Below are positions 1,845 through 44,452 of a stretch of DNA of 64,000 bases, in pieces. This DNA comes from Sinomonas cyclohexanicum. GTDB taxonomy: Bacteria; Actinomycetota; Actinomycetes; Actinomycetales; Micrococcaceae. The notes beneath the pieces are model-generated. The model was given only the letters and a program-made list of their open reading frames with translations. It was not told the origin of the DNA and searched no databases. A program made the position numbers and the translations under genes. Numbering within the stretch: position 1 is the stretch's first letter; each line of letters opens with the position of its first letter. The DNA is taken from the NCBI RefSeq assembly GCF_020886775.1, contig NZ_AP024525.1, positions 1,426,001 to 1,490,000 of the forward strand. Reading direction: 5' to 3'.

Positions 1845-2804
1845 TTAGCCGCGGTAGCCGTGCGCGCGGAGTGCTGCGAGGACCTTCGCGACGACGAAGG
1901 CCTCGCCCTCCGCCATGTCCTCCTTGGTGATCTTGACTTGGATCCAGCCGGCCGCTCGCGCGCTGCGGTCCCGCGCGGCGTCGTGCGCCCTCTGCTCATT
2001 GGACAAGAAGTGGTGCTCGCCCTCGTATTCGACGGCCACGCGGAATGCGGGACTGCCGATGTCCACCCAATGGGTGACGCCCCACGGGTCGGTGACGGGG
2101 CAATTGGGGATGAATCGAGGGAGCCCGGCGCGTTCGAGCATCTGGCGCAGCCGGGACTCTTGGGGTGAGTCGACGCCCACGGCCAGCAGCTCCAGCGCGA
2201 TGCGGGCACGGCCCAGCCCGACGACGCGGTGCCGGCTCGCCACGAAGGCCCTGAGCGCGGTGAGGGGCACGATCGCGGTCCGCGGGTAGTACGTCCGCGC
2301 GTGCTGCGACACGAGGTACTCGCCGGCCACGATCACGTCCTCCAGCGTGAGACGTCTGATGCCGCAGAGATCCAGCCACGTGCGCTCGGCGGTGGTGACC
2401 CTCGTGCCCCGGATGACGACGACCTCGTCGTCCCGGAGCCGCAGGCGATGCCCTCGGACCTCGGGGCGCCGCGGCTGGCCGAGCCGCTCCTTGGCTCCAG
2501 GCTCCGCCGCCGCGGCCCGGGACAGGTCGAACTGGGCGGCGTCCTCCGCCCACGCGGGCAGCGGGATGTGGTGGACGGCCGCAGCACTGAGGTGACTCAG
2601 CGCCGTCGTGCGGTGGAGCGCGGTGTAGGGCCGGGCACGCTGCAGGAGGCCTTCTCGAGCCAGCTCTGGTGTCCGGATGCCGCGGCTCGGGCTGATGAGG
2701 TCCTCGCGGGCGAGACGTCGGGCGGTCAGCCCGAGTCGTCGTCCTTCCTCAGTCGTGAAGGACGACTCAGTGAGGGCCGGCGGGAGCGGTTCGTTGAGCG
2801 GCAT
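1845..2804 (-). CDS. Solitary AbiEi-like protein with C-terminal DUF559/Vsr-like nuclease fold
   Basis: The 319-residue protein has an N-terminal half like AbiEi-type antitoxin/transcription regulators of actinobacteria (helix-turn-helix-like start, then 'TALHRTTALSHLSAAAVHHIPLP' type segment; conserved 'GTRVTTAERTWLDLC'). Its C-terminal ~110 residues resemble the DUF559/very-short-patch nuclease fold: an E at 'SPQESRLRQ', then 'VDIGSPAFRVAVEYEGEHHF' and a final 'IQVKITKEDM'. No AbiEii toxin gene is adjacent, so it stands alone. It converges on mfd and is bracketed by copies of a GGGTAC-type repeat. The segment 'QRAHDAARDRS' carries the host GTCGTGCGC word (1980-1988). Function is unproven; defence or regulatory roles are possible. 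Confidence 0.6.
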   Translation of the reverse strand: MPLNEPLPPALTESSFTTEEGRRLGLTARRLAREDLISPSRGIRTPELAREGLLQRARPYTALHRTTALSHLSAAAVHHIPLPAWAEDAAQFDLSRAAAAEPGAKERLGQPRRPEVRGHRLRLRDDEVVVIRGTRVTTAERTWLDLCGIRRLTLEDVIVAGEYLVSQHARTYYPRTAIVPLTALRAFVASRHRVVGLGRARIALELLAVGVDSPQESRLRQMLERAGLPRFIPNCPVTDPWGVTHWVDIGSPAFRVAVEYEGEHHFLSNEQRAHDAARDRSARAAGWIQVKITKEDMAEGEAFVVAKVLAALRAHGYRG

Positions 2805-2862
2805 GGATTCATTGAGTCACACGTGGGGGATTCGTGCGTCGCGTTATCCACAGGTAGGTGAT

Positions 2863-3004
2863 CTCGGGTACGACGCTGTCGGCTCCCGAAACGCCAGATG
2901 CCCGGCCGAACATCGTTCGACCAGGCATCGCGTACCCGCTGTTCGTCTAGGGCGAGTCATGTGTACCCGAGACGATGGTGGGGAGGAATATGTGTACCCG
3001 AAAC
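2863..3004. repeat. Cluster of GGGTAC/GTACCC repeats and a hairpin
   Basis: CTCGGGTACG (2863-2872) and inverted copies GTACCCG (2932-2938), GTACCCGAGAC (2963-2973) and GTACCCGAAAC (2994-3004) lie upstream of the AbiEi-like gene. Between them, 2897-2929 folds as a hairpin (GATGCC/GGCATC outer, CGAAC/GTTCG inner). The words match the tandem repeat after mfd, so the gene is flanked on both sides. Confidence 0.6.
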
Positions 3005-3013
3005 GGGAGGTCT

Positions 3014-3244
3014 CTAGCGGCGGTGCTCCTTGCCCGTGTCGTTCTTGGCGAGGAACGTCATAGGGATGCCGAACGCCGCGGCGTAGAGGAAAATCAGGGC
3101 CGCCATCTGCCACACGTTGGTGAAGTCGACCCACTGCACGATGTACAGGCCCACCAGGAACAGCACCATGAAGATCACGAAGAAGATGATGCTCGGGCCC
3201 AGGGGGTTCGGCTCGAGGGGGCGGTTGTACTGATCGTCAGACAT
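3014..3244 (-). CDS. Small two-helix membrane protein
   Basis: The 76-residue protein has a hydrophilic N-terminus (MSDDQYNRPLEPNPLGP), a transmembrane segment at about residues 18-40 (IIFFVIFMVLFLVGLYIVQW), a second at about 46-66, and a basic C-terminal tail (KNDTGKEHRR). It follows deoC by 33 bp on the same strand and is probably co-transcribed. I do not recognise a named family. A conserved actinobacterial membrane protein of unknown function is the safest call. Confidence 0.7.
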   Translation of the reverse strand: MSDDQYNRPLEPNPLGPSIIFFVIFMVLFLVGLYIVQWVDFTNVWQMAALIFLYAAAFGIPMTFLAKNDTGKEHRR

Positions 3245-41831: not shown

Positions 41832-41906
41832 AGTCTCATCCTAGAACATATCTCTGGCAGGTGGAAGATGTATCGGAAATATATACGATAAGGCATCCGC
41901 GGCGGG

Positions 41907-41941
41907 GCGCACGACGGCGGCAACTCGCCGCCGTCGTGCGC
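41907..41941. repeat. 15-bp perfect hairpin made of the GCGCACGACGGCG word, in a divergent promoter region
   Basis: GCGCACGACGGCGGC and GCCGCCGTCGTGCGC flank the loop AACTC. The hairpin lies between the starts of the DUF222 gene and ligA, so it is unlikely to be a terminator. Confidence 0.85.
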
Positions 41942-42028
41942 ACCGCCTGTATCCGCGGGGAGCCTCAACCCGGAGCCTTGCGGCGGCCAGACACAGGACT
42001 GTCGGAGGCATGCGGCAAGATAGACACC

Positions 42029-44452
42029 GTGAGCGCAGAAGCAGCCAAGACCCAGGCAGCCGGCACCCAGGCCCCGAGTGTCGACGGGGCGAACGCCGAG
42101 GCGGTGAACGACGGGGCCGTGGTCCCGTCCGAGTCGCTGCGCGACGAGTATGACGCGCTCGCGGACGAGGTCCGCAAGCATCGTGCGCTGTACTACAACG
42201 AGGACACTCCGGTCATCTCGGACGCTGAGTACGACGCGCTCTTCCGCAGTCTCGAGGAGTTCGAGGCCCTCCATCCCGAGCTCGTGGCCAACGACTCGCC
42301 CACCCAGGAGGTCGGCGGTGAGGCGACCGCCGCGTTCGCCCCGGTTCAGCACCTGGCGCGGATGTACAGCCTCGAGGACGTCTTCTCGATCGAGGAGCTC
42401 GAGGCGTGGATCCGCCGGGCCGAGGCGAGCGTCGCGGCCCTCGGGCTGCCGCCCGCCAAGTGGCTCACCGAGCTCAAGATCGACGGCCTCGCGATCAACC
42501 TGCTGTACCGCAACGGCGAGCTCGTCCGGGCGGCGACCCGCGGCGACGGCCGCACCGGCGAGGACGTCACCCACAACGTCCTGACCATCAAGGACATCCC
42601 CACTCGCCTCGCCGGAGAGGGCCACCCCGAAGAGGTGGAGATCCGCGGCGAGGTCTACATTCCTACGAAGGCCTTCAACGAGTTCAATGACGCGCTCATC
42701 GCGGACGGCAGGGCTCCGCTCGCCAACCCGCGCAACGCCGCCGCCGGGTCGCTGCGCCAGAAGGACCCTGCCGAGACGGCCAAGCGGCCCCTGAGTATGT
42801 TCGTGCATGGCATCGGCGCACGCGAAGGCCTCGCCGCCGCGAGCCAGGCTGAGACCTACGAGCTCCTCAAGGCGTGGGGCCTGCCCACGAGTCCGTACTA
42901 CGAAGTCCTCGACACGTACGAGCAGGTCCTCGCCTTCATCACGAAGTACGGCGAGAAGCGTCACAGCCTGATCCACGAGATCGACGGCATCGTGGTCAAG
43001 GCCGACGATTTCGCCACCCAGCGGGCACTCGGCCACACCTCGCGCGTGCCGCGCTGGGCGGTCGCGTTCAAGTACCCGCCCGAGGAGGTCCACACCAAGC
43101 TCCTCGACATCCAGGTCAACGTGGGCCGCACGGGCCGCGTCACGCCGTACGGGGTCATGGAGCCGGTCAAGGTCGCGGGCTCCACGGTCGAGATGGCCAC
43201 GCTGCACAACCAGGACGTGGTCAAGGCCAAGGGGGTCAAGATCGGCGACATTGTCGTGCTGCGCAAGGCCGGCGACGTGATCCCCGAGATCGTGGGTCCC
43301 GTCCTCGCGCTGCGCGACGCGCAGGATCCCCCTGTCCGCGACTTCGTCATGCCCACCGAGTGCCCCTCATGCGGCACCCCGCTTGCGCCGAGCAAGGAGG
43401 GCGAGGTGGACATCCGCTGCCCCAACGCCCGGTCGTGCCCGTCCCAGCTGCGGGAGCGCGTCTTCCACCTCGCAGGGCGGGGCGCGTTCGACATCGAGGC
43501 GCTCGGCTGGGAGGCCGCGATCGCCCTCACCTCGGGCCCCGGGCCAGACCCCGCAACGATTGGGGGCCGGCCGCAGCCCTCCGGGCCGGGCGTGCTGGAC
43601 GGCGAGGCCCGGATCTTCGAGCTTGCCGCCGATTGGTCCGACGCGACACTGCGTGACGCGCTCGCTGACGTCATGGTCTGGCGGGAGAAGCGCGCCAAGG
43701 GCGCCGGCACTGGGCAGTGGGACCTTGTCCCGTACTTCTGGACCAAGCCGACGGCCAAGAAGCCGTCGGTTCCGACCGCCTCGACCGAGAAGCTCTTCGC
43801 AGAGGTCGAGAAGGCCAAGACGCAGCCGCTCTGGCGGGTGCTCGTGGGCCTCTCGATCCGGCACGTGGGGCCGACGGCGTCGCGCGCCCTCGCGACCCGG
43901 TACGGCTCGATGAGGGCCCTCCGCGAGGTCCTCGCGGCAGGCGACGCGCGGGAACAGCTCGCCGACGTCGACGGCGTGGGCCCCATCATCGCCGACGCCC
44001 TCATCGAGTGGTTCGCCGAGGACTGGCACCGCGACATCGTGGACCGCTGGGCCGCCGCCGGCGTGAAGATGGAGGACGAGCAGCACGCCTCGGTGGGCCG
44101 CACGCTCGAGGGCCTGACCATCGTCGTCACCGGCAGCCTCGAGGGCTTCAGCCGCGACGAGGCGAAGGAGGCGATCATCATCCGTGGAGGCAAGGCGTCC
44201 GGGAGCGTCTCGAAGAAGACCGACTACGTCGTGGCGGGCGAGAGCGCCGGCTCGAAGCTCGACAAGGCCGAGCAGCTCGGAGTCCCGGTCCTCGACGAGG
44301 CCGGCTTCCGCAGGCTGCTCGACGAGGGCCCGGCCCCCGCAGCCGAGCCAGACGAGGCTGCCCCGACGCACGACGACGGTGCTGGCGCCACCTCGCGCGG
44401 CGAGCTCGCCGCGGAGATCGGCGAGGCAGAGGCAGAAGGAGAGGGCGAATGA
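42029..44452 (+). CDS. ligA: NAD-dependent DNA ligase
   Basis: LigA seals nicks in replication and repair. The GTG start at 42029 gives 807 residues. Visible are the Ia domain ('[30 protein letters not shown]'), the adenylated lysine K150 in '[10 protein letters not shown]', '[15 protein letters not shown]', the OB fold, a zinc finger with C445, C448, C464 and C470, helix-hairpin-helix repeats and a BRCT domain ('[20 protein letters not shown]'). Between the zinc finger and HhH region is an insertion of about 60 residues ('[19 protein letters not shown]', '[17 protein letters not shown]'). The acidic C-terminal tail contains '[12 protein letters not shown]', a near-copy of the host AHDG word. 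The next gene starts with an ATGA overlap. Confidence 0.96.

Follow-up and report, generated by a model that had tools for sequence, protein, structure and literature searches.

A DNA uptake sequence-like word in Sinomonas: a putative self-tag with two one-letter dialects

Short words that are iterated along whole genomes are known from several bacterial systems. The uptake signal sequence (USS) of Pasteurellaceae is an abundant short tag of self-DNA that skews the encoded peptides, HIP1 of cyanobacteria is a highly iterated palindrome, very abundant and dispersed, and Chi and KOPS (FtsK-orienting polar sequences) are genome-wide, strand-polarised short words that have DNA-processing machines as their readers. 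The DNA uptake sequence (DUS) of Neisseriaceae is, in the excerpted text of Frye et al. (2013, PMC3630211), a word of 10–12 bp with very many genic and intergenic copies (~1900 in N. meningitidis, 943 in N. cinerea), whose inverted pairs are linked to terminators and whose dialects, one to few letters apart, track the core-genome tree. Here we describe the word CGNCGTCGTGC(GY), met in a 64,000-bp stretch of the genome of Sinomonas cyclohexanicum (contig NZ_AP024525.1, positions 1,426,001 to 1,490,000; this whole stretch is called the window) and dispersed over the rest of that genome. The pattern of its copies makes it somewhat probable that the word is a DUS-like, putative self-tag of Sinomonas and that a DUS-like system exists in Actinobacteria.

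As far as the excerpts describe the DUS of Neisseriaceae, the Sinomonas word resembles it in its many genic and intergenic copies, in its clade dialects and, in the host genome, in inverted pairs behind genes. It differs in its sequence, in being GC-rich, in its occurrence in Actinobacteria and in its number of about 1000 copies; unlike Neisseriaceae, Sinomonas has Flp/Tad pilus genes with no type IVa prepilin found, and its uptake system is a prediction. The USS is unrelated in sequence and belongs to a different lineage and a different cell envelope. Very abundant dispersal is common to HIP1 and to the word described here, although HIP1 is a palindrome and the Sinomonas word is not, and Chi and KOPS are strand-polarised whereas the Sinomonas word is not clearly so. 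Micrococcus luteus belongs to the same family as Sinomonas. Its transformation requires comEC and tad genes, and comEA and dprA homologues and Flp/Tad clusters are present with no type IVa pilus genes, according to the excerpts of Angelov et al. (2015, PMC4322843); Sinomonas is like it in combining comEA, comEC and dprA homologues with Flp/Tad genes and no type IVa prepilin found. The excerpts of that paper mention no uptake word for M. luteus, a search of PMC6667448 for five uptake-word terms gave none either, and none of the literature matches listed dealt with such a word in Micrococcaceae or Actinobacteria.

The word and its copies in the host genome

An earlier note on the window had listed 15 copies of the 9-mer GTCGTGCGC/GCGCACGAC and estimated about one by chance. 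There are 17 copies (those at 5211 and 10727 had been overlooked, and the one given at 11361 is actually at 11363), and 100 dinucleotide shuffles gave a mean of 3.95 and a maximum of 11, so that the chance estimate was too low while the excess itself stands. The genome-wide frequency is not near expectation either, with 759 copies in the single-contig host genome (4,413,566 bp) against 167 of a reversed control. The 9-mer is nevertheless not the natural unit, because GCC or GGC directly precedes 16 of the 17 window copies and the 11-mer CGCCGTCGTGC is far more enriched; the real unit is CG(C>G)CGTCGTGC(GY), of which GTCGTGCGC is a mere fragment. The unit was searched for in 864 kb, made up of 40 spread 20-kb host stretches and the window, where an order-4 Markov model predicts 13.3 copies of CGCCGTCGTGC and 214 are observed; for the 12-mer CGCCGTCGTGCG the prediction is 4.6 and the observed number 149. 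In this sample CGCCGTCGTGC and words overlapping it top the rankings of 9-, 10- and 11-mers, and among the 12-mers the overlaps of the word are interleaved with two further short repeats and with the parS site. Over the whole host genome CGCCGTCGTGC, which differs from its own reverse complement and is thus non-palindromic, has 974 copies (475 on the plus and 499 on the minus strand), compared with 19 (11 and 8) for its reversed control.

The core of the word tolerates little change. At positions 1, 2 and 4–8 of the 12-mer, the 21 one-letter variants have 0–5 copies each versus 149 perfect ones; 19 of them reach at most 1.4 times expectation and the remaining two 2.4 and 3.1 times (3 and 2 copies). 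Position 3 accepts G, T or A, and positions 9–12 are looser. The core CGNCGTCGTGC has 343 copies in the 864-kb sample (166 plus, 177 minus), and these are spaced at random (mean gap 2,347 bp, coefficient of variation 0.98, n = 262). Outside the 13-base word, the flanks carry at most 0.38 bits at any position examined, also when only the 266 unpaired copies are considered. The position that reaches this value, a preference for G, lies 9 bases upstream of CGNCGTCGTGC, about one helical turn away, and is seen in the unpaired copies too; part of it may be codon periodicity, though the position stands out.

In the window, CGNCGTCGTGC occurs 33 times, with the last copy at 45692, and all of these copies, like all 17 of GTCGTGCGC, lie between 1 and 46 kb:

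1976..1986, plus strand, uptake-like word CGGCGTCGTGC
2601..2611, plus strand, uptake-like word CGCCGTCGTGC
5408..5418, minus strand, uptake-like word CGTCGTCGTGC
5846..5856, minus strand, uptake-like word CGACGTCGTGC
6011..6021, plus strand, uptake-like word CGCCGTCGTGC, in an opposite-orientation pair with 6059, inside a gene
6059..6069, minus strand, uptake-like word CGCCGTCGTGC, partner of 6011
8202..8212, plus strand, uptake-like word CGGCGTCGTGC
10729..10739, minus strand, uptake-like word CGCCGTCGTGC
11149..11159, plus strand, uptake-like word CGCCGTCGTGC
11359..11369, plus strand, uptake-like word CGGCGTCGTGC
11986..11996, minus strand, uptake-like word CGTCGTCGTGC
12031..12041, minus strand, uptake-like word CGCCGTCGTGC
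14980..14990, plus strand, uptake-like word CGCCGTCGTGC
16854..16864, plus strand, uptake-like word CGGCGTCGTGC
16938..16948, minus strand, uptake-like word CGCCGTCGTGC
21002..21012, plus strand, uptake-like word CGGCGTCGTGC
24478..24488, plus strand, uptake-like word CGCCGTCGTGC
25118..25128, plus strand, uptake-like word CGGCGTCGTGC
26263..26273, plus strand, uptake-like word CGCCGTCGTGC
27897..27907, minus strand, uptake-like word CGCCGTCGTGC
29605..29667, head-to-head pair with its minus-strand arm at 29605-29615 and its plus-strand arm at 29657-29667, a long hairpin between genes (RNA folding energy -65.1 kcal/mol, z -8.8)
29878..29888, plus strand, uptake-like word CGCCGTCGTGC
31042..31052, minus strand, uptake-like word CGCCGTCGTGC
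33619..33629, plus strand, uptake-like word CGGCGTCGTGC
33739..33749, plus strand, uptake-like word CGCCGTCGTGC
35531..35541, minus strand, uptake-like word CGCCGTCGTGC, intergenic by home-made gene calls
35908..35918, plus strand, uptake-like word CGACGTCGTGC
37037..37047, plus strand, uptake-like word CGCCGTCGTGC
41909..41939, head-to-head pair with its minus-strand arm at 41909-41919 and its plus-strand arm at 41929-41939, a hairpin between genes (RNA folding energy -47.8 kcal/mol, z -8.3)
44368..44378, minus strand, uptake-like word CGTCGTCGTGC
45692..45702, plus strand, uptake-like word CGCCGTCGTGC
46001..64000, prophage part, no CGNCGTCGTGC on either strand

The statement of the earlier note that no copy is complete in the 18-kb prophage was borne out, with 0 copies of CGNCGTCGTGC there versus 33 in the adjoining 46 kb. 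The Markov expectation for the prophage part is 0.43 copies, and the Poisson probability of a stretch this long being empty is 2.5e-6 if the density next to it is used and 8e-4 with the mean density of the sample. The extent of 46–64 kb is the call of that note; among ten proteins scanned in it, five match phage tail, head or lysis families, covering 48.5–59.5 kb, and five match nothing.

Gene positions, reading frames and codon shuffles were obtained with a simple home-made codon-score gene caller and not from annotation. Unpaired copies make up 266 of the 343, and 221 of them lie in genes (coding fraction 0.857), 109 in sense and 112 in antisense orientation. They are read as xVV in 103 cases, as xHD in 78, as TT in 32 and in other frames in 8, so that the description of the word as mostly Ala-His-Asp holds only in part. 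The genic copies are distributed fairly evenly along genes and therefore are not chiefly at termini. Selection for a protein motif was rejected in view of the three reading frames. Within-gene synonymous codon shuffling left 18.8 copies of CGCCGTCGTGC where 128 are observed (6.8-fold), and 51.5 copies of CGNCGTCGTGC where 239 are observed. In the host, the peptides AHDG and AHDA are 6.7-fold and 2.6-fold over the composition expectation, an indication that the word, acting as DNA, has left its mark on the proteins.

The unpaired copies are nearly neutral with respect to replication (149 of 266 on the leading strand, p 0.057) if the origin is placed at the parS cluster (4.40 Mb) and the terminus is assumed to be opposite. 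This cluster consists of six parS-like TTTCACGTGAAA sites near the contig end (our handle L048; 4,402,978–4,407,540 of the host genome, G000), marking the origin region.

A different arrangement is found for copies with a close neighbour. Neighbours less than 60 bp apart are head-to-head in 30 of 39 cases (spacing maxima at 21 bp and 39 bp), and 59 of the 77 copies in such pairs are intergenic. Nearly all head-to-head pairs (28 of 30) are located between genes, 15 in tandem, 10 in convergent and 3 in divergent gaps, compared with 279, 73 and 109 such gaps in the background. The median distance from these pairs to a flanking gene end is 22 bp for 3' ends (n = 35) and 89 bp for 5' ends (n = 21). 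RNA folding gave strong hairpins for all three head-to-head pairs tried, and certain pairs extend as longer shared stems.

Dialects within Sinomonas and distribution beyond the genus

Across 15 Sinomonas genomes, CGCCGTCGTGC has 151–974 copies, with 151 in G001 versus 974 in the host at practically the same sample GC (0.705 and 0.704). In a 100-kb sample of the low-count G001, the top 11-mer is CGCCGTCGTCC, with 22 copies versus 1.4 expected. We refer to the GTGC form CGCCGTCGTGC as the A word or dialect and to the one-letter variant with GTCC, CGNCGTCGTCC/CGCCGTCGTCC, as the B word or dialect. Genome-wide, CGCCGTCGTCC has 722, 694, 552, 499, 482 and 448 copies in the six low-count Sinomonas, 224–331 in eight others and 575 in G008. 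Counts of the A and B words are anticorrelated (Spearman -0.72, n = 15 genomes), and a tree built from one 20-kb syntenic block separates the six low-count genomes (B clade) from the other nine (A clade) with a support of 1.000.

As a control for a general preference between GTG and GTC, GTCGTGC was compared with GTCGTCC after different 4-mers. After CGNC, the host has a ratio of 358:133 and the sample from the B clade one of 30:127 (Fisher p 3e-33); with other NNNC in front the ratios are 63:99 and 26:45 (p 0.77), and with the remaining 4-mers 118:162 and 27:40 (p 0.89). The dialect switch is confined to the CGNC context. A sample of the eight other A-type genomes is intermediate, with 47:30 after CGNC and 11:29 and 19:20 in the control contexts. 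The summed density after CGNC is alike, at 531, 503 and 485 per Mb.

The switch can also be followed at single places. An alignment of the 15 genomes (of which G012 covers just 13 kb) contains 54 word places, 27 of them in a single genome. Eleven places are occupied in both clades, and at eight of these the majority is GTGC in the A and GTCC in the B clade, two of the eight having exceptions and one being at a gapped spot, while the reverse is found at none. The rest comprise two places with one letter in both clades and one that is mixed. Places occupied only in the B clade have GTCC in 12 and GTGC in 5 cases. G008 is the sole genome among the 15 that is rich in both dialects (606 GTGC, 575 GTCC) and is the most informative one for the course of the dialect switch.

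Beyond the genus, a search for the paired form GCGCACGACGGC-N(3-20)-GCCGTCGTGCGC matched 98 stretches of genome_contigs versus 0 of viral_contigs. Sinomonas accounts for 62 of the 98 and Arthrobacter or Paenarthrobacter for 15; the 21 others include 8 Streptomyces and 3 Promicromonospora. Among 295 genomes of the family, the A word is highest in Sinomonas, certain other genera have 200–400 copies (for example G030 with 379, G037 with 406 and G052 with 342), and the genomes of g11, g22 and g23 and most of those of g21 and g3 are at or near the control level. A few of 159 genomes of the order are high, such as G418 (464 versus 58 in the control) and G319 (417 versus 44). The reversed-word controls are not codon-matched, and small ratios are thus not interpreted. 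In 80-kb samples from one genome each of g11, g21, g22 and g23, no comparable word was found. A possible third dialect, CGGCGTCGTCCT, has 13 copies in 240 kb of G071, where it could be an effect of acidic-linker proteins, and the word tails CGCCGTCGTGCT in G037 and CGCCGTCGTACT in G021 are seen in few copies (7 and 5).

Competence genes, the self-tag reading and its rivals

The host has matches to a gene set of the kind known from the transformation of M. luteus. A comEC gene and an adjoining comEA-family gene, both over the cut-offs, are located at ~2.224–2.227 Mb, and dprA, which is matched in all 15 Sinomonas genomes, at 2.4606 Mb. A Flp/Tad cluster at 3.086–3.093 Mb encodes a Flp pilin, RcpC/CpaB, a ParA-type ATPase, a TadA-type ATPase and two T2SSF proteins, together with a second Flp-like protein that scores below the Pfam cut-off, while the first is above it. 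More secretion ATPases are encoded at 2.716 and 3.471 Mb.

If the word is a self-tag, a surface DNA receptor, either a Flp/Tad-associated pilin-like protein or ComEA, would prefer DNA that bears it, and preferred uptake followed by homologous recombination would copy and repair the word across the population by molecular drive. The preference of this receptor may have changed in the ancestor of one Sinomonas clade and could then have turned existing words from one letter to the other, and paired copies may have been co-opted as transcription terminators. For the wider claim, that this would be the first sequence-tagged, self-preferring DNA uptake in a Gram-positive phylum, with Flp/Tad instead of type IVa pili and with two dialects acting as a one-letter barrier between clades, we see the chances as evenly balanced. 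Were it true, Actinobacteria would be a new setting for a self-recognition tag otherwise used by certain other bacteria, and self-tagged uptake would evolve more often than the known cases had led one to think. Competence in the soil relatives of Micrococcus could be approached through sequence, and a dialect switch of one letter inside a genus would allow the change in the receptor to be mapped. Transformation would then be expected to rise when the word is added, and an exchange of the one letter to make it fall in one clade and rise in the other.

A number of results weigh against the self-tag reading. As to the genes, each of 56 genomes has a comEC match over the cut-off, and in all 56 comEA-family matches reach E 0.001 (35 over the cut-off), in both cases including word-free genera, so that their presence does not discriminate. 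No type IVa prepilin (PF07963) is over the Pfam cut-off in 32 genomes, which means that a ComP-like receptor is not visible, and the competence of Sinomonas is itself a prediction. As to pairing, the B word is genic in 120 and intergenic in 7 of its 127 copies in the B clade, with two close pairs, one of each inverted order, and of the 47 A copies in a 159-kb block from the eight other A-type genomes none forms a close pair. The B clade and this sampled block are therefore without the pairing of the classic DUS, although close pairs do exist in other Sinomonas stretches of the genome_contigs search. Only 2 of the 30 host head-to-head pairs have TTTT within 25 bp, and terminator function is thus suggested by their position alone. 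Places occupied only in the A clade are GTGC in 14 and GTCC in 11 cases with one tie, so dialect purity is imperfect. The depletion in phage DNA rests on a single prophage. Lastly, word density rises with local GC (Spearman 0.43), and in six other high-GC genomes the A word is 1.4- to 3.3-fold and the 9-base core 0.8- to 2.1-fold over the codon shuffle (small counts); part of the in-gene excess may for this reason be ordinary codon context. Two excesses rise less far above this background than that of the host, namely 3.9-fold for the B word in its own clade and 3.8-fold for the A word in the eight other genomes of A type. The codon-shuffle control is void for 5 of 13 sample sets (G071, G024, G061, G105 and G195), in which the gene caller gave a coding fraction of 0–0.04.

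Several options had been listed for the word in the earlier note, among which the uptake-like one fits best; an architecture word has little backing, and a mobile-repeat remnant none for the unpaired copies. One alternative, which we consider unlikely, is a Chi-type recombination hot-spot word read by an AddAB/AdnAB-like nuclease with clade-specific recognition. Chi words differ between lineages, and the word described here is short, abundant, lineage-specific and absent from the prophage, as would suit them. However, Chi words are 5–8 bp long and clearly oriented with replication, compared with at least 11 bp and the near-neutral orientation observed here, and head-to-head pairs behind genes would be unexpected. 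RecC (PF04257) had no match in any of the 15 Sinomonas genomes, in a search that did not extend to AddAB and AdnAB. Strand-polar words in general, KOPS as well as Chi, were rejected in view of the near-neutral strand distribution.

A word bound for nucleoid structure, segregation or another aspect of chromosome architecture would agree with the genome-wide spread and with the prophage lacking copies. We regard it as quite improbable, however, given that spacing is random and that strand polarity is not firm; nor would such a word be expected to switch by one letter between clades of a genus while its density stays the same. We put no more trust in the idea of a terminator stem or REP-like (repetitive extragenic palindromic) repeat that would have single copies as by-products. 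The strong folding of the head-to-head pairs, their location behind 3' gene ends and the longer stems of certain pairs are what it would predict, but most copies are unpaired and lie in genes in both orientations, their flanks contain little information, and B-word copies are almost never paired. These flanks, nearly empty beyond the 13-base word, also leave a mobile-repeat remnant unsupported for the unpaired copies, and a dispersed transposable repeat (REP or miniature inverted-repeat transposable element) was rejected on them. Finally, a codon-pair or composition artefact of a 70% GC genome (GCC-GTC-GTG, GCG-CAC-GAC) can point to the rise of density with GC and to the modest excesses in other high-GC genomes, yet it is very improbable in view of the 6.8-fold excess in genes, the hairpins outside them and the difference between the host and G001 at equal GC, and as a sole cause it was ruled out by the codon shuffle together with the context control, in which the switch is specific to one context and the others are unchanged.

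Other repeats

Some further repeats were met in the same material. Five copies of GGGTCACTTCCC (either strand), spaced by 19–39 bp, are found at 33411–33519 of the window, in the gap that the home-made gene calls leave between 32374 and 33539; they are perhaps a regulator-binding array, and the same sequence appears singly or in small clusters under our handles L009, L014 and L021. With a spacing of 14 bp, CAGGAGGTGACT (either strand) occurs four times at L020:2452-2509 and twice at L035:11656-11681, as well as once or twice each in L012, L013, L015, L017 and L037. Outside the family, in L209 and L210 of G312 (another family of the order), CGAGACCGGTC is over-represented, with 12 matches in 80 kb; among the 8 of the 12 inspected there are inverted copies close together, and it looks like a palindromic repeat element. 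G071 (L171, L172, L193, L195 and L198) has a dispersed element with GTATAAAAATGG, matched 10 times in 240 kb, and among the 8 of these matches inspected two are inverted pairs 31 bp apart.

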